From assembly GCF_007994985.1 (NCBI RefSeq), contig NZ_VOQF01000003.1, forward strand, positions 124,001 through 188,000: 64,000 bases of DNA. Direction: 5' to 3'. The translations under genes were made by a program, and so were the position numbers. Each line of letters starts with the position of its first letter. The first letter of the stretch is position 1. This DNA is from Metabacillus litoralis (GTDB taxonomy: Bacteria; Bacillota; Bacilli; Bacillales; Bacillaceae). The notes under the pieces were generated by a model. It saw nothing but the letters and a program-made list of their open reading frames with translations, was not told the DNA's origin and did no database searches. Shown one piece after another: positions 2,279-25,038 of the stretch.

Positions 2279-2315
2279 GAATGGTAAAACAGTTATCTCC
2301 ATTGTTTTACCATTC
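2279..2315. terminator. Bidirectional terminator hairpin after the TerC gene
   Basis: A perfect 12-bp stem, GAATGGTAAAAC with GTTTTACCATTC, encloses a 13-base loop. The core GGTAAAAC/GTTTTACC with a 13-base loop is repeated at 4309-4343 after mutL, which matters for the integrated-element interpretation. Confidence 0.8.
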
Positions 2316-2320
2316 TTTAT

Positions 2321-2340
2321 ATTACATCACACGTTTAATT
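2321..2340. repeat. Candidate att site, displaced copy of the mutL 3' end
   Basis: On the minus strand this stretch would read as a KRVM-stop tail like that of MutL but has no gene in front of it. It matches 4351-4370 at 16 of 20 positions in the same orientation. Confidence 0.55.
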
Positions 2341-2351
2341 ATCTATTTTCA

Positions 2352-2365
2352 CGAACGATCGTTCT
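2352..2365. promoter_or_regulatory. LexA (DinR) box-like palindrome in the element remnant
   Basis: CGAACGATCGTTCT differs from the Bacillus SOS consensus CGAAC-N4-GTTCG at one position and contains a perfect 12-base palindrome. It lies 12 bases inside the left copy of the mutL tail. No intact gene starts next to it, so it may be a relic operator. A small hairpin (TTTCTTAT/ATAAGAAA, 2382-2403) follows. Confidence 0.4.
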
Positions 2366-2403
2366 GTTTCATAGTAAGTATTTTCTTATCTATAAATAAG
2401 AAA

Positions 2404-2761
2404 TCCTAAAAATTTTTTTCGTAAAATTATTATATCAATTGGACAAACTGTGGTCATTTTGGTGGTCACTTTTTATAATGTGTTCATTTTTAAAAAGGTC
2501 CAAAAAATCAGCTTCAACTTGTAACCTAGAAATAATATCCTTTTTCTTATCCTATTATCTATACAAGATGTTCTGTGATGATAAAAGAACTATAAAAGAG
2601 GTTGGAACATAACTAATTTGCTTGTTTAAAGCAGAATAATATATAACAAAAAATAAAAAGACCGTGCTATCAAATAATTTCAAATTAGAATTAGAATGAT
2701 AGTTCGGATTTTTTCCGGCTGAAATACTTTTATCCTAGCCTCTCTTATGTAATTATATTTT
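2404..2761. other. Non-coding stretch inside the element, with a possible terminator at 2648-2715
   Basis: Apart from the GTGGTCA pair, the only structure I see is CCG..CTATCA (about 2660) pairing with TGATAG..CGG (about 2700), preceded by A-rich and followed by T-rich sequence. This would serve as a terminator for the minus-strand gene at 2762-3352. No gene of any length is convincing here. Confidence 0.4.
2449..2469. repeat. GTGGTCA repeat pair, left (candidate recombinase arm sites)
   Basis: TGTGGTCATTT is followed two bases later by GTGGTCA. The same pair in the same orientation is at 4275-4295 right after the recombinase gene. Paired short repeats near both ends of an element are typical of tyrosine-recombinase arm-type binding sites. 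Confidence 0.5.
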
Positions 2762-3352
2762 TCATTTACTTTTACGGTTTAATATCTTCATTAAGATGCT
2801 TATTCCAAAAAGCGCAAAAATAATTGAGAGAATCCATAAATAAATTGGATTCTGGCCATCTTCGGTTATTTCCTGTTGTTCTTGTTTAAGAGTTACATCA
2901 CCGGAAAGTATTTCTTCCTTTTGTTCATAATAATTATTAACTTCTTTTTTTGCTTCATTTGTTAAAGTTTCAAGTTCTTCTCTTGTAATGCTTTCATTAT
3001 GAACGTCAGCATAAATGTCTAAATAATTTCCGTAAACAATATCCTCATTATATACAAAACTTGAACTTCCACTTTCTTCTAGGTATTTATCTACCTTTTT
3101 TGCATTTAGTTTTTCATATTTGAGGTCAGTTGCATGTATAAAATAAGTGTTTGAACCAGAAGTTGTTTCTTGATCCCCTACTTTTTTTATTTCAATATAA
3201 TCTAGGTTAATTCTTGTGCCCTCTTCACTTTTAGTCCAACTAATGTCAGTTAAAATCTTCCTTAAGATGAAATTATCCTCTGCTGAAACTTTATTAAAAT
3301 TTAGAGATAAAAGAAAAGTAATAATGAATAATAGAGAAATTCTTTTTAACAC
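2762..3352 (-). CDS. Unrecognised secreted, membrane-anchored protein (element cargo)
   Basis: I do not recognise this protein. From the GTG at 3352 it is 196 residues: a short basic N-terminus, a hydrophobic signal sequence ending near VSA-ED, a mainly polar extracellular part rich in Glu and Tyr, a charged, probably helical stretch (about residues 125-160), then one hydrophobic segment (YLWILSIIFALFGISILM) and a basic tail KILNRKSK. That is a type I membrane topology. The GTG at 3352 sits 9 bases after AGAGGTG; an upstream GTG at 3364 overlaps that site and is less likely. It is divergent from the broken recombinase inside the mutL-linked element, so transfer is likely. No sortase motif or catalytic motif is visible. 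Confidence 0.6.
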   Translation of the reverse strand: MLKRISLLFIITFLLSLNFNKVSAEDNFILRKILTDISWTKSEEGTRINLDYIEIKKVGDQETTSGSNTYFIHATDLKYEKLNAKKVDKYLEESGSSSFVYNEDIVYGNYLDIYADVHNESITREELETLTNEAKKEVNNYYEQKEEILSGDVTLKQEQQEITEDGQNPIYLWILSIIFALFGISILMKILNRKSK

Positions 3353-3440
3353 TACTAAAGGCACCTCTGTCTAAGTAATTTTTCAAAATACTAGGGATTA
3401 TTATAATATTATATTTTCTAAAAATATAGTTTTTATTTAA

Positions 3441-4273
3441 GTGTATGTAATATTGCTTTGGATCCTGATAGAATCTAAGTACTACAAGGAATTACTAGAT
3501 GAAGGACTATCTGAAGAATACGTCCATTATATACACTCGATTCTTAAAACTGCAGCTCAAACAGCTATCGATTGGAAGTACCTCAAAAATAACTTTATGA
3601 ATAATGTGAAAGCTCCTAAGCGTATTAAGAAAAAAGTTGAAACCTGGTCTATTGATGAATGTAACTTATTTCTAAATAGAATGCGAGAACAAAAAGATCA
3701 TATTTTTTTGATGTATTGTTTAGCAATTTATACAGGTATGCGGCGTGGTGAAATTCTAGGTCTAAGATGGAAAGATATTGATTTTGAAAGAAGTAGAATC
3801 TATGTAGAACATTCACTATATTACATTTCTGGTGAAGGATTAGTATTACATCAACCAAAGACGACTAGTGGAAAAAGAAATATCTCCATTACGGATGAGG
3901 TTATCGAAGAATTAAAGTCTTATAGAGTAAAAAAAAGGAACAACTATTGAAAGTAGGAACGAAATTAACTGACGAGCATTTTGTTGTTTCCGCATTTAGT
4001 GGCGAACCATTAAATCCAAATACAATTCATAAGCAATTTCTATATGATACTAAATTAGCTGATCTCAAAAGGATTAGGTTCCACAATCTGAGACATACAC
4101 ATGCAACTATCATGTTAGAGATAGGTGAAAGCCCAAAAGTTGTATCCAAACGATTAGGTCATGCGAATGTTTCTATTACATTAGATAAATATAGTCATGT
4201 CACTTCAAATTTACAAACTGAATCAGCCGAGAATTTTGCAAAAGCATTAAGAAAAACTAGCTCTGAGCAATGA
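3441..4273 (+). pseudogene. Tyrosine recombinase/integrase, N-terminally truncated and frameshifted
   Basis: Two overlapping frames together encode a phage/ICE-type integrase. The first (3441-3950) has the end of the core-binding domain (KYYKELLDEGLS) and the first part of the catalytic domain, with the catalytic Arg in TGMRRGEILGLRW and the Lys in PKTTSGKRN. The second (to 4273) has HNLRHTHA, LGHANVSIT and the nucleophile in LDKYSHV. All catalytic residues are therefore present, but a -1 shift is needed at the run of eight A's at 3929-3936. The N-terminal arm-binding part, about 100 residues of the usual 370-390, is missing. Decay is the simplest reading; slippage at A-AAA-AAA is possible but cannot repair the N-terminus. 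The gene points at its presumed att site. Confidence 0.85.
3929..3936 (+). other. A8 run at the recombinase frame break
   Basis: The zero frame reads GTA AAA AAA AGG and stops at 3948-3950. Moving back one base at the A-run continues into the second half of the recombinase. The run could be a slippery site or a simple indel hotspot. Confidence 0.6.
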
Positions 4274-4274
4274 A

Positions 4275-4295
4275 TGTGGTCATTTCGTGGTCATT
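4275..4295. repeat. GTGGTCA repeat pair, right (candidate recombinase arm sites)
   Basis: TGTGGTCATTT, one base, then GTGGTCA; it begins just after the recombinase stop codon and repeats the pair at 2449-2469 in the same orientation, with one base less between units. Confidence 0.5.
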
Positions 4296-4308
4296 ACATC
4301 AAAAAATA

Positions 4309-4343
4309 AAGGTAAAACCCATATATATCAACGGTTTTACCTT
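4309..4343. terminator. Terminator hairpin after mutL
   Basis: AAGGTAAAACC pairs with GGTTTTACCTT (11 bp, 13-base loop), 8 bases beyond the mutL stop. It shares its core and loop length with the hairpin at 2279-2315. Confidence 0.75.
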
Positions 4344-4351
4344 GTTAAAAA

Positions 4352-6292
4352 TCACATCACTCGTTTAAACATCTTCTCCATCTCATACGTCGAATAATGA
4401 ACAATGATAGGTCGACCATGTGGACATGTAAACGGATCAGAGGAATGTCTTAATGTTTCTAATAAAGCAAATATCTCATCATTTCGCAAATGATGATTCG
4501 CTTTAATTGAAGCTTTACAGCTCATCATAATAGCTGCTTCTTCTCTTAGCTTTTTCAAATTAATTTTTTTATCATCTAATACCTGCTGGATGATTTCTTC
4601 TATTGTTGTTATTTCATCTCCCTTTGGAAACCATTGTGGATGTGATCTTACAATATAACTATTGCGACCAAAGGATTCGAGAAAAATTCCAACCTGAGCA
4701 AGTGTATCAAGATGCTCCTCAATAATCATCACTTCATCATTGGAGTATTCAAATGTAATAGGAACTAGAAGCTCCTGTACCTCTGACTGAATTTCTCCAA
4801 CCTTTTCTCGATAAAATTCATATTTTATCCTCTCTTGTGCTGCATGTTGATCAATGATAAAAAGACCTTGATCATTTTGAGCTAAAATATATGTCCCATG
4901 CATCTGACCTATCGGATATAAAGGTGGAATACGGTCTGTTTTTTCATCATTGTAAATTGTTTCCTCTATATCTTCTGAGAATTCATTTTGAGAAATAGTA
5001 TCTTCATTCTGACTAAATGGGCTTTCGATCGGTGCATCATTTCCATTTTCTATAACATTCTGTTGTTCATCAAAAGATCTGTTTTTTGTATCTTGTTCAT
5101 ATGTTTCTATTTTGATTGAATTCGTAATTGATGGCTTCACATCATCTAAAAATGAACTTTCTTTTATTACAGGTGTGGTAGTACCATGATTAGCCATTTG
5201 GTTATGATGACGATCTATTTCAGTGCGATGATTAAATGTAAATTGTTGCTGTTCATCAATTGATTTTGCTTTTTTGATTTTTGGTGTTTCAACAGATGGA
5301 ATTAGCTGCTGCTGTTTAAAAACATCTTTTATCCCACTTGCTATTAACTCATTTAATTCAGCTTCTTTGCTTAATCTTACCTCTAGCTTTGAAGGGTGTA
5401 CGTTCACATCAACCAGTATTGGGTCCATCTTTATTTCTAAGAAAACAATTGGAAACCGGCCAATTGGAAGTAATGTGTGATAGCCTTGCTGGATAGCTTT
5501 GACAAGAGAATAGTTTTTAATAAAACGTCCGTTAATTATCGTTGATATATAGTTTCTTGATGCTCTAGTGATCTCCGGTAGTGCTATATAGCCATTCACA
5601 TGGAAATCTAATGATTCAAGAGAGAGCTTTTTCATTTTTTTCGCAATAGTGAGACCATAAATTGCAGCTAAAACTTGGCGAACATCTCCACTTCCATTTG
5701 TGTGTAATAGCTTTTTCCCGTTATGAACAAGACGAATGGAAACCTCTGGATGCGCTAAAGCAATTCGATTAACAATATCGGTTATATTCCCTAACTCTGT
5801 ATGAATCGTTTTCATATATTTCAAGCGTGCTGGTGTATTGAAAAATAAGTTTCTAACTGTAATATCAGTACCTTTTCTACTAGTTGTTGATACATGCTTT
5901 TCAATTTTACCACCAGATAAAATGATGTTTGTTCCTGCACCCTCGCCAGTACTAGTTTTCATATCAAGTAGTGAAACAGAAGCAATACTTGGTAAAGCTT
6001 CCCCCCTAAAGCCAAGAGTACGAATTCGAAATAAATCATTTTCATCTTTAATTTTACTTGTTGCATGACGATGAAACGCATTTATACAATCATCCTGTTC
6101 AATACCGTCACCATTATCAACAATTCGCATTTTACTTAAGCCTGCTTCTTCAATATCAATTTCAATAACTGTGCTATTAGCATCAATTGCATTTTCTAAC
6201 AATTCTTTTACAACAGAAGCTGGTCGTTCAACAACTTCACCTGCCGCAATTTTATTAGATAGTGAATCATCAAGGCGTATTATCTTTCCCAA
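4352..6292 (-). CDS. mutL: DNA mismatch repair protein MutL
   Basis: MutL couples MutS mismatch recognition to strand incision. The N-terminal GHKL ATPase is complete ([36 protein letters not shown]). The poorly conserved linker spans about residues 345-450. The C-terminal domain has the endonuclease metal motif [21 protein letters not shown] and CPHGRP, so this is the nicking type found in bacteria without MutH. QELLVPI resembles a clamp-binding motif. The start is a TTG at 6292, 8 bases after the ribosome binding site AGGGTGG, giving (M)GKIIRL as in B. subtilis MAKVIQL; GTG codons at 6301 and 6304 overlap the site. It lies 46 bases after mutS, surely one operon. Its last codons form half of the att duplication described above. 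Confidence 0.96.
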
Positions 6293-6338
6293 AAGTATCA
6301 CCACCCTTTCTAGTATAGAGAAGTCTGAATCCTAATCT

Positions 6339-8939
6339 TTAAGACTTTACTTTTTTCTGGAGCTGATAAAGTTCGTTCATAGCATCTAATGGTGTCATTT
6401 CTAAAAGATTTAATGATTTTAAGAGTTCGATTGCCGCTTGCTCTTTTTTAGGTATTTGCTGTCCTTTATTTGAAGCTTGTTTTTCAACTGGAAATAATGA
6501 GAGCTGAGAATCTGAATCTGAAAAAGTCTCTTCCTTCACAATATCTTTTGTTTTCACTGGTATTGCTTCTGTTTTTTCTTTTTCTAACTCAGTTAGAATT
6601 TCTTTCGCTCTTTTTATTAGTGAACTTGGAAGATCAGCAAGTTCTGCAACATGGATACCGTAACTCTTATCTGCTGCACCTTCTTCAATTTTGTGTAAAA
6701 ATACTACACGGCCGTTCTCTTCAATAGCTTTCACATGGATATTGTTTAAGGAGTGTAATTGTTCTTCAAGAACCGTTAATTCATGATAATGCGTTGAGAA
6801 TAATGTTTTTGCTCCAATGAACTCATGTATGTGTTCTATTATTGCTTGTGCTAAAGCCATCCCATCATAAGTAGAAGTACCTCTTCCAATTTCATCAAAC
6901 AAAATTAAGCTCTGTGATGTTGCGTGAGCAATCGCATTTTTAGCTTCTAACATCTCTACCATAAATGTACTTTGTCCTGAAATCAGATCATCAGCTGCAC
7001 CTATTCTTGTGAAAATTTGGTCAAATATAGGTAGAACCGCTTTTGTAGCTGGTACATAACAACCAATTTGAGCCATAATAGAAGTTAAAGCAACTTGTCT
7101 CATATACGTACTTTTACCAGACATATTTGGACCAGTAATAAGCAACATGCCACGATCATGATTAAACGAACAATCGTTTGGTACATATTCCTGAGAATCC
7201 ATCACCTTTTCCACTACGGGATGACGTCCATCTTTAATTGATAACTCACCATTGCTTGAAAAGTTCGGCTTACAATAGTGACGATTTTCACTAACAGTTG
7301 CAAAGCATTGTAAAGCATCTAACTTACTTAAATGCTTCGCTAAACCTTGTAACCTAGGAATATAGTTTTTTACCTTTTCTCTTATATCGACAAATAACTG
7401 ATATTCTAATTCAACGATTTTTTCCTCGGCTTCTAATATTAAGGACTCTTTTTCTTTTAGATCAGGTGTTATATAGCGTTCTGCATTTGATAGAGTTTGC
7501 TTCCGCTCATAAACTCCTTCCTCTAATAAATGAAGATTTGCTCTTGATACTTCAATAAAGTAACCAAATATTTTGTTATAGCCTATTTTTAATGATTTTA
7601 TACCAGTTTTCTGCCTTTCCTGTTGCTCAAGCTGTGCAATCCACGTTTTCCCATTGCGACTTGCATCTCGGTATTGATCTAATTGACTATGATAACCGTC
7701 CTTAATAATGCTTCCTTCTTTTATGGATAAAGGAGGAGTTTCAACAATGGCTTCCTCTAATAACATCGCTAAATCAACACAAGCATCAAGTTGTTGTGAA
7801 AAGTATCCTTCTTTTTGCAATGTTAGACATAATTTTTCAATCTCTGGAACTTGCTGTAACGATTTTTTTAATTGAATCAAGTCTCTAGCATTTACATTTC
7901 CAAAAGCAACTCGCCCGGCTAAACGTTCTAAATCATAAACTTCTTTTAAAAGCTGCCTTAAATCCTCTCTTTCAAAATAATTCGCTATTAATGTTTCAAC
8001 CATCAATAAGCGTTCTTCTATTTTTGAGCGATCAACAAGGGGCTTGTCCACCCATTGCTTTAGAAGACGAGCACCCATAGCAGTCTTTGTTTCATCTAAT
8101 AGCCATAGAAGTGATCCTTTTTTCCCTTTAGAACGAATCGTTTCTGTTAGCTCTAAGTTCCGTTTTGAATATAAATCTATTTTCATTGCATCTTGTAAAT
8201 AATACACCTTAACTTGCTGAAGATGATCAAGACTTCTTTTTTGAGTACGTTCAAGATATGTTAGTAATCGATCGAACGTTTTAACAAGACGCTCGTCAGT
8301 AACTTGATTTAAAATGACTTCAAATTTAGTTGTAGTATTGGTATCAAGTTGATATGACAATGTCGCCTGACATCGGTCAACTAATTGTTTTTTCAATGAT
8401 TCAGGAAATTCATTTGAAATAACAACTTCCTTGGCCCCAACAGAATAAATTTCATTTAAAAGCTCATCAAAGCTTGCACAAATTGCAACAAGATTTTCTC
8501 CTGTCGTTAAATCACTTAAAGCAAGACCAAATTGAGAGTCAAAAACTGTTACAGAAGCAATATAGTTATTTTCTTTATCTTGTATCGCTTTCCCGTCCAT
8601 AACCGTACCAGGTGTAATTAGCTGTACAACCTCTCGTCTAACAACACCTTTTGCTTGCTTTGGATCTTCTGTTTGCTCACAAATTGCGACTTTATAGCCT
8701 TTTGTAATAAGCTGTTCAATATAGTTAGGTGCAGAATGATGTGGAACCCCACACATTGGAATTCGATCCTCTCCACCACCATCACGACTTGTTAATGTAA
8801 TTTCAAGTTCCTGAGATGCATTGATTGCATCATCAAAAAACATTTCATAAAAATCACCTAATCGAAAAAATAAAAAGGCATCTTGATAATTTGCCTTAAT
8901 CTTTAAATATTGTTGTATCATCGGCGTATATGTTGCCAT
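6339..8939 (-). CDS. mutS: DNA mismatch repair protein MutS
   Basis: An 866-residue, full-length MutS. The mismatch-reading Phe-X-Glu lies in [10 protein letters not shown] near residue 30. Connector, core and clamp domains follow, then the ATPase with Walker [11 protein letters not shown] (about residue 600), Walker [16 protein letters not shown] and the helix-turn-helix dimer contact. The C-terminal tail contains QLSLF, a likely beta-clamp binding motif. The ATG follows GGGGG at good spacing. It is the first gene of the mutS-mutL operon and is divergent from the MerR/ABC pair across a 197-base promoter region. Confidence 0.98.
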
Positions 8940-24114: not shown

Positions 24115-25038
24115 TCAGAAATTGATATGTTCAAGAAAATTTCGATACATAAATTTATGTACAAGTTCTTCGTTGTAATATTTTTGAAGTTCGTTAATCA
24201 ATGTTTCATAACATGCATAATTATGTAAACCTTCTATTGTAACATCGATCCCATCAAAATCCGATCCAAATCCAAGCTGATTTTCACCTCCTAATCCACA
24301 AATATAATCCACATGTTTTATGACATCTGAAATTGTTGGATTATTTTTACTCGTTGTAAAAAATGGAACAAACGTCACACCTATCATGCCTTTATTTTTT
24401 AAAAGAGCGACAATTTGCTCGTCTCGTAGGTTTCTCACATGAGGACAAATCGAATAAGCATTTGAATGGGATGCAATCGGGTACTTCGCTATTTCTAGTG
24501 CTTCCCAAAAGCTTCTTTCACTAGCATGTGAAACATCTGTCCATAGCTGCTTTTCATTTAAATACTCAATAACACTTCGCCCAAAGTTTGTTAAACCACC
24601 ATTTCTTTTTTCATGTGCTCCATCAGCTACCAGATTAGCAAAATTCCATGTTAAACCAACAGATCTGACTCCCAATTGGTACAATATTTGCAGATTCTTT
24701 AACTGATCTCCTATCGCATCACATCCTTCTAACGTTAAAACTGCTCCAATTTCTTGATTAGTTATTTGATCAATATCTGATTTTGTTTTTATTAGTTTTA
24801 TTTCTGGATAATTCTTAACGATCTTTTCATAGAAGATCGTAATTTGTTGTAAAGCAATGTCCATTCTATTGATAAACGGAACATCTTCAGGAATAAAGAT
24901 GGCAAAACACTGGATATTATTGTTCATTTTTTTTAGTTTTGAGATTGAAACCTGGAGTCTCTCATCTTGGTATACGTCTATATCAGGTTCTCTCCATAGC
25001 TTATATAATAAATCACAATGAGCATCAAATATTTTCAT
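24115..25038 (-). CDS. Membrane dipeptidase family (renal dipeptidase, peptidase M19)
   Basis: A zinc peptidase of the amidohydrolase fold, 307 residues. Metal ligands are visible in order: HCD at residues 7-9 (FDAHCDLLYKLW), the bridging glutamate in AVLTLEGCDAIG, the histidines in LWTDVSHASERSF and PIASHSNAYSI, and the aspartate in FGSDFDGID. Family members cleave dipeptides, including those with a D-residue at the C-terminal side. No signal peptide is present, so it is cytoplasmic despite the family name. It is located between spoVS and korA, as in other Bacilli, but its cellular role there is not known. Confidence 0.9.
   Translation of the reverse strand: MKIFDAHCDLLYKLWREPDIDVYQDERLQVSISKLKKMNNNIQCFAIFIPEDVPFINRMDIALQQITIFYEKIVKNYPEIKLIKTKSDIDQITNQEIGAVLTLEGCDAIGDQLKNLQILYQLGVRSVGLTWNFANLVADGAHEKRNGGLTNFGRSVIEYLNEKQLWTDVSHASERSFWEALEIAKYPIASHSNAYSICPHVRNLRDEQIVALLKNKGMIGVTFVPFFTTSKNNPTISDVIKHVDYICGLGGENQLGFGSDFDGIDVTIEGLHNYACYETLINELQKYYNEELVHKFMYRNFLEHINF

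Follow-up and report, generated by a model that had tools for sequence, protein, structure and literature searches.

Integration that restores the 3' end of its target gene is a known mechanism, and tyrosine-integrase prophages and islands in the 3' ends of genes or tRNA genes (the TIGER/Islander kind) have an integrase by one attachment (att) site, a direct repeat of the target's 3' end, a restored gene end and arm-type repeats inside both element ends. The SpyCI islands of Streptococcus pyogenes insert between mutS and mutL, at the 5' end of the latter gene, and can silence it, as stated in the available portions of PMC3430984, PMC4701971, PMC6036120 and PMC8115907; in emm4, according to the available part of PMC8115907, mutL is still transcribed. 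Here we describe an insert at 2279–4369 of a 64,000-nucleotide stretch of Metabacillus litoralis (contig NZ_VOQF01000003.1, positions 124,001 to 188,000; hereafter the window, whose own positions are used below), which is very probably what is left, after decay, of an element of probable phage origin that had integrated at the mutL 3' end. Arm-type repeats, an integrase beside one att site and a direct repeat of the gene's 3' end are all present, as in the TIGER/Islander-type islands, from which the insert differs in its target, the mutL 3' end with its terminator. It resembles SpyCI in being integrated at mutL, but it lies at the 3' end and leaves mutL whole, and thus does not have the 5'-end position of the SpyCI type.

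As far as the available text of the papers goes, no report of the mutL 3' end as an integration target was met in the literature searched; supplements and island databases lay outside this search, and the site may sit there unremarked. It is not mentioned in the main texts of PMC12884075, PMC12424338 and PMC8138268; the first two, which deal with islands, do not contain the word mutL there at all. The available portions of PMC3675006 and PMC7487436 refer in passing to streptococcal islands at mutL, and the mentions of mutL in those of PMC3948429, PMC6929445 and PMC8074189 are about other matters.

The locus has the order terC (plus strand, 1480–2250; PF03741, 7e-46), a host gene flanking the element on the side far from mutL, then the 2-kb insert, mutL (minus strand, 4352–6304) and an 866-aa mutS-like gene (minus strand, named by eye). 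A hairpin together with the last mutL codons occurs twice, at 2279–2338 (attL) and 4311–4369 (attR). The distal hairpin (2279–2315, with 13-bp perfect arms) is read as the displaced mutL terminator and adjoins the attL core (2321–2338), a copy of the last mutL codons (KRVM-stop), whereas the proximal hairpin (4311–4341) is the present mutL terminator and adjoins the attR core (4351–4369), which is made of the last codons and stop of the gene itself. The two core copies, ATTACATCACACGTTTAA at 2321–2338 and ATCACATCACTCGTTTAA at 4351–4368, agree at 16 of 18 positions. With up to three mismatches allowed, the core has two matches only on both strands of the window (chance mean 0.10; none of 100 shuffles had two), and the hairpin pattern GGTAAAAC-N10-16-GTTTTACC is found only at 2283–2311 and 4311–4341 (chance mean 0.00). 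The initial annotation of this DNA had described the mutL tail and its terminator as present twice in the same orientation about 2,030 bp apart, and this is borne out by exactly two matches each for core and hairpin. Its hairpin positions were also correct, but the loops of 13 bases that it gave for both are in fact spacers of 13 and 15 bases.

Arm sites flanking an att core are the layout of lambda-type integrases. Beyond what had been annotated, GTGGTCA repeats lie inside both ends of the element, on the plus strand: the putative P-arm integrase sites (2450–2486) are GTGGTCA at 2450 and 2462 and GTGTTCA at 2480, and the putative P'-arm sites (4276–4293) are GTGGTCA at 4276 and 4287. Pairs of the form GTGGTCA-N3-6-GTGGTCA occur at these two places only in the window (chance mean 0.00). 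Left sites were found at +127 to +129, +139 to +141 and +157 to +159 from the core start in five of the eight left ends examined, namely those of the window genome (G000), M. litoralis SaN21-6 (G003), Niallia sp. NCCP-28 and two of B. swezeyi; they were unrecognised in M. crassostreae DSM 24486 (G011; stretch deleted), P. butanolivorans and H. ginsengihumi. Right sites stand at −76 to −74 and −65 to −63 in nine of 12 right ends examined (four of the nine with one mismatch in at least one site), while two of the 12 have a single site and one has none. Judging from this layout, the integrase probably bound three left-arm and two right-arm GTGGTCA sites. A GTGGTCA triplet in H. ginsengihumi (C20:936/948/966) has a similar mutual spacing, but the nearest core-like stretch is 91 bases off and not 127–129, and it was not counted as a left end.

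The tyrosine recombinase that had been annotated as aimed at mutL is present, but as a pseudogene (plus strand, 3468–4273). PF00589 was matched by Pfam in both reading frames within 3441–4273, and the frame shifts near an A-run at about 3930. When the N-terminal parts of full-length relatives served as queries, the alignment to the pseudogene began only at about residue 113, and the arm domain is thus missing; part of the core-binding domain is missing as well. Among known systems it is close to the tyrosine recombinases that have an arm-binding domain: its Niallia relative has Arm-DNA-bind_4 and catalytic domains and direct arm-type repeats, but the window copy has lost the arm-binding domain. 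The mutL frame is intact, open over 650 aa with a full MutL_C domain (PF08676, 1e-49). MutL has an FxR motif at its very C-terminus. The motifs in the available portion of PMC10366529 are DQHA, ACR and CPHGRP only.

The remaining gene of the insert (minus strand, 2762–3364) encodes 200 aa with hydrophobic stretches at both ends (by eye). It had been called an orphan, and no family match was indeed found in Pfam, PHROGs or NCBIfam, but relatives exist in four other Metabacillus genomes, away from mutL (150 genomes searched). No phage genes were recognised between the att sites of the window, and no relaxase or transfer gene, by which an integrative conjugative element would be recognised, was found among the proteins searched in the window or in the Niallia element described below.

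From these features we infer that a tyrosine integrase recombined the attP of the element with an attB at the mutL 3' end. The attP would have brought its own last mutL codons, stop and terminator hairpin, thereby restoring mutL, and the old mutL tail and terminator would have been displaced by about 2 kb to their place next to terC. In a later decay, the integrase would have lost its N-terminal arm-binding domain and its frame, with both att ends still recognisable; an element whose integrase is without these should therefore not move on its own. Since such an element supplies the last mutL codons and the terminator, each insertion or excision would rewrite the end of a mismatch-repair gene. 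The proposal of the initial annotation that an element remnant is integrated here is thus supported by the repeats and arm sites and also, as described below, by recurrence in other genomes and discordance with host relationships.

We call the integrase lineage of the window, with GTGGTCA arm sites, A-type, and a second lineage, with TGCCCAC repeats, B-type. A scan of genome contigs with the window integrase gave 36 loci, one being the query's own. The integrase adjoins the mutL end or a copy of it in seven of them (M. litoralis, M. crassostreae, Niallia, P. butanolivorans, B. swezeyi, P. frigoritolerans and H. ginsengihumi), including all five with at least 75% identity. A strict attR pattern matched six of 397 Bacillales genomes, G000 included, and its reversed control none of 397. 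All six matches end in mutL, but this location is partly dictated by the pattern, which itself includes some of the mutL tail; what is independent of it is the arm pair at the right distance. Two of the six genomes (G289 and G352) have no integrase match in the locus and appear to carry bare footprints. A left-arm pattern without mutL letters matched one of the 397 genomes, H. ginsengihumi, on a contig bearing mutL; it misses G000 through the mismatch in the third site of that genome.

The initial annotation expected larger elements with the same duplication and a related integrase, and these were found. The fullest A-type element is that of Niallia sp. NCCP-28, 15.1 kb long and bounded by cores at positions 24673 and 39817 in the stretch that was read. 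Its genes encode an Rv2525c-like/LysM endolysin, a ParM-like partition protein, Abi_alpha and an integrase with Arm-DNA-bind_4 and catalytic domains, which has one frameshift. No convincing head gene was found among the proteins searched, in which there was one weak coiled-coil match. The endolysin, ParM-like and Abi_alpha genes suggest that the A-type lineage is probably phage-derived. Searches of phage records with the A- and B-type integrases gave only matches below 60% identity, with a top row of 38% for each, so that no named phage of either type can be given. The Abi_alpha (abortive infection) gene, at L250:7143–7988, is likely anti-phage cargo.

B. swezeyi has three cores in series (567, 2406 and 6558 of L082), with an integrase remnant immediately left of those at 2406 and 6558, and its most distal core keeps one right-arm site. 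In H. ginsengihumi, a core copy separates an A-type integrase from a B-type integrase, which is in turn followed by mutL (cores at 6684 and 10447 of L085). Both species carry stacked insertions. The A-type integrase gene of H. ginsengihumi contains an inverted stretch of 213 bp (L085:6271–6483).

The history of the right end of the window element departs from that of its host. In 150-bp windows, G000 and M. crassostreae are 77–84% identical through the integrase and right end and 97–99% in the adjoining mutL. Between G000 and SaN21-6, identity is 79–89% in the first half of the integrase remnant and 94–95% in the last part (the last 300 bp of the element), and 86–89% in the adjoining mutL, down to 59% in its variable linker. 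By segment, the right end (4274–4351) is 84% identical to M. crassostreae and 92% to SaN21-6, the corresponding values for mutL being 96% and 83%. In mutL, fourfold sites agree at 198 of 228 between G000 and M. crassostreae and at 121 of 206 between G000 and SaN21-6; for the latter pair, the integrase has 15 of 27 agreeing in its first part and 31 of 37 in its last. By these window identities and fourfold sites, mutL follows the host tree, whereas the right end is a mosaic, of which the last part departs from the host relationships, with a switch at the core.

The conserved left end (2317–2597) is 83% identical over 278 bp to SaN21-6 and 91% and 89% identical, in two pieces, to M. crassostreae, and the similarity ends at 2596/2597 against both. 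Between the conserved ends, G000 has no DNA similarity to either. In place of the 200-aa gene of G000, SaN21-6 carries a peptidoglycan-binding WHH-nuclease toxin and a SUKH immunity protein, and M. crassostreae an Rhs-like tip (by eye) and a 119-aa protein. Another near relative (G012) has a SUKH gene beside an integrase stub, and no match to the WHH-nuclease toxin was found in the stretch searched there. SaN21-6 and G012 share a 947-bp block, with the SUKH gene in it, at 93.6% identity, and fourfold sites of this pair agree at 38 of 45 in SUKH and at 87 of 192 in mutL. These comparisons indicate that the material between the ends has been exchanged within Metabacillus. The toxin/SUKH coordinates are L079:3408–5514 in SaN21-6 and L067:17916–18509 in G012.

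This exchange is also what would be expected if the 2-kb piece were not a dead prophage stub but one of a family of small mobile cassettes, each pairing an integrase end with cargo that can be swapped, and mobilised in trans by a related integrase. G000 has all five arm sites in recognisable form, the cargo is wholly different between conserved ends in three species, and the SUKH block is far more alike than the mutL genes of the genomes that share it. However, the A-type integrase copies examined are all broken or truncated, a free form was not seen, and the mosaic is accounted for just as well by swapping through homologous recombination in the conserved ends. We therefore consider such a cassette unlikely.

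Several observations speak against an integrated remnant at 2279–4369. The crossover point cannot be placed, since the cores differ at two of 18 positions and the hairpins in the spacer and outer stem. GGTAAAAC-type hairpins also follow mutL in integrase-free genomes, for example G019 and G004, so that either hairpin could be the ancestral one. The left arm is 90–100% identical between G000 and M. crassostreae, as vertical descent would give, so that the discordance is confined to the right end. An intact A-type integrase was not found, even that of Niallia having one frameshift, and two A-type arm patterns each matched no contig in IMG/VR. In G012, the cargo contains a second core (two mismatches) that is not accompanied by a clear hairpin, and neither G012 nor G013 gave a clear attL. 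Finally, a Metabacillus genome without the integrase (G008; L267) has a second mutL tail, with one mismatch, 2,057 bp from the first, and there no arm pair was found and the only integrase-like matches are two weak, short ones elsewhere (E 0.006 and 0.43).

G008 is best considered with the other relatives, in a survey of near relatives and not a random sample. A mutL match was obtained in 59 of 60, and A- or B-type integrase sequence lies behind mutL in eight of the 59 (G000, G003, G011 and G012; G009, G010, G024 and G049), amounting to only 19–20 aa in G010 and G024. G013 has arm sites alone, and the other 50 have neither integrase nor arm sites. No second core with up to three mismatches was found in these 50 within the 0.75–2.5 kb read, which is often shorter than the 2.0-kb spacing (in about half of the 59 genomes). 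In 13 Metabacillus genomes without integrase or arm pairs, read over 5.2–8 kb downstream, a second tail (up to three mismatches) was present in one. The expectation that relatives without the integrase would have a single copy thus holds for 12 of these 13 and fails for G008. A genome with both copies and no recombinase had been named in advance as evidence against an element, and G008 is such a genome; yet the flank after its second core resembles the left arm. In a gapped comparison, none of 2000 shuffles reached the score against G000 or M. crassostreae, two of 2000 did so for M. litoralis and 85 of 2000 for B. swezeyi, while an ungapped comparison gave no similarity. From this left-arm similarity, G008 is read as a probable footprint of an A-type element minus its integrase. 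None of the relatives was found to have terC directly behind a single mutL tail. Between the two tails of G008 stands a spore-germination-permease-like gene (by eye), and a similar gene lies behind mutL in G013.

Ordinary tandem duplication or homologous recombination could in principle have duplicated the mutL tail with no role for an integrase. G008 has its two tails without one, and the different histories of the left and right ends indicate that homologous recombination acted here. However, the copies of other species end at the same codons beside unrelated inserts, an integrase remnant stands immediately left of the core in B. swezeyi (2406 and 6558) and in H. ginsengihumi (6684 and 10447), and left-arm-like sequence follows the second tail of G008 itself, so that we give this explanation a very small chance. 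That the two tails are merely look-alike terminators of terC and mutL, with an integrase remnant between them by chance, is barely credible: both hairpins are at expected terminator positions and GGTAAAAC-type terminators stand behind mutL in integrase-free Metabacillus (G019, G004), but the distal copy has KRVM-stop codons that a terC terminator does not need, and GTGGTCA at fixed distances on both sides, common to other genera, makes such a coincidence very unlikely. With integration at mutL, the set of recurrent integration sites comes to include the 3' end of a conserved repair gene, and the att layout found here, a core with three left and two right repeats at fixed distances, may be used to detect footprints of lost elements, as in G008, G289 and G352.

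The B-type lineage is found at the same gene end. In the Metabacillus genome G009, an open 374-aa B-type integrase with arm, core-binding and catalytic domains lies at mutL. Two extra 45-bp copies of the tail, 98% and 91% identical to that of the window, are on another contig, and the 98% copy is followed by endolysin, tail and virion genes; the two contigs presumably join. A pattern of the last ten mutL codons matched three IMG/VR contigs. The first starts with the mutL tail, followed by a 370-aa integrase and TGCCCAC repeats; the second (40 kb) has the tail beside a holin-like gene; and the third has a mutL fragment, a short recombinase and a terminase-like gene, names assigned by eye.

Order-wide, six of eight loci with at least 56% identity to the G009 integrase are at mutL (a ninth match, a second place in G049, came without a locus and is outside this count). 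The other two, in G240 (63%) and G353 (61%), have integrases (L178 and L181) that adjoin an LLM-class oxidoreductase-like gene (by eye), with no mutL match in their flanks. Therefore, mutL targeting is not common to the whole B group, and these two loci suggest a change of target within one integrase group. In a tree built from 49 of 50 integrase rows (all but L116, with some truncated at the first Met), the A rows group in a single clade (100/100), separated from the B rows by a branch with 100/100 support. The label "mutL" takes four changes in this tree, at least three of them forced by well-supported branches, where "other" means that mutL was not found in a flank of 1.5–6 kb. Use of the mutL end as a target thus changed several times, and we favour two origins for it.

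These results make two integrase lineages at one short stretch, with close relatives of the B-type at another gene, a clean case for the evolution of target choice, and B-type integrases that are intact might be of use as tools for insertion in Bacillaceae. We propose, tentatively and with some doubt, a wider picture in which the mutL 3' end would be a general docking site in Bacillaceae, where two integrase lineages stack phages and small cargo elements, and in which a disabled element in Metabacillus would have become fixed conserved ends between which toxin/immunity and other cargo are swapped between species.

Two smaller features of the window element were also observed. Just inside attL, CGAACGATCGTTC at 2352–2364 is the sole CGAAC-N4-GTTC in the window (chance mean 0.13), and related forms are at the equivalent place in M. 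litoralis and B. swezeyi; we take it to resemble a Bacillus LexA/SOS box, and it could regulate excision. In addition, a degenerate repeat starting GAGGTTGGAACATAA / GAGGCTCGGACATAA, with a T-rich hairpin, is present at 2598–2745 and at L083:4470–4570. It lies at different points in G000 and M. crassostreae (by eye), and looks like a small dispersed repeat.

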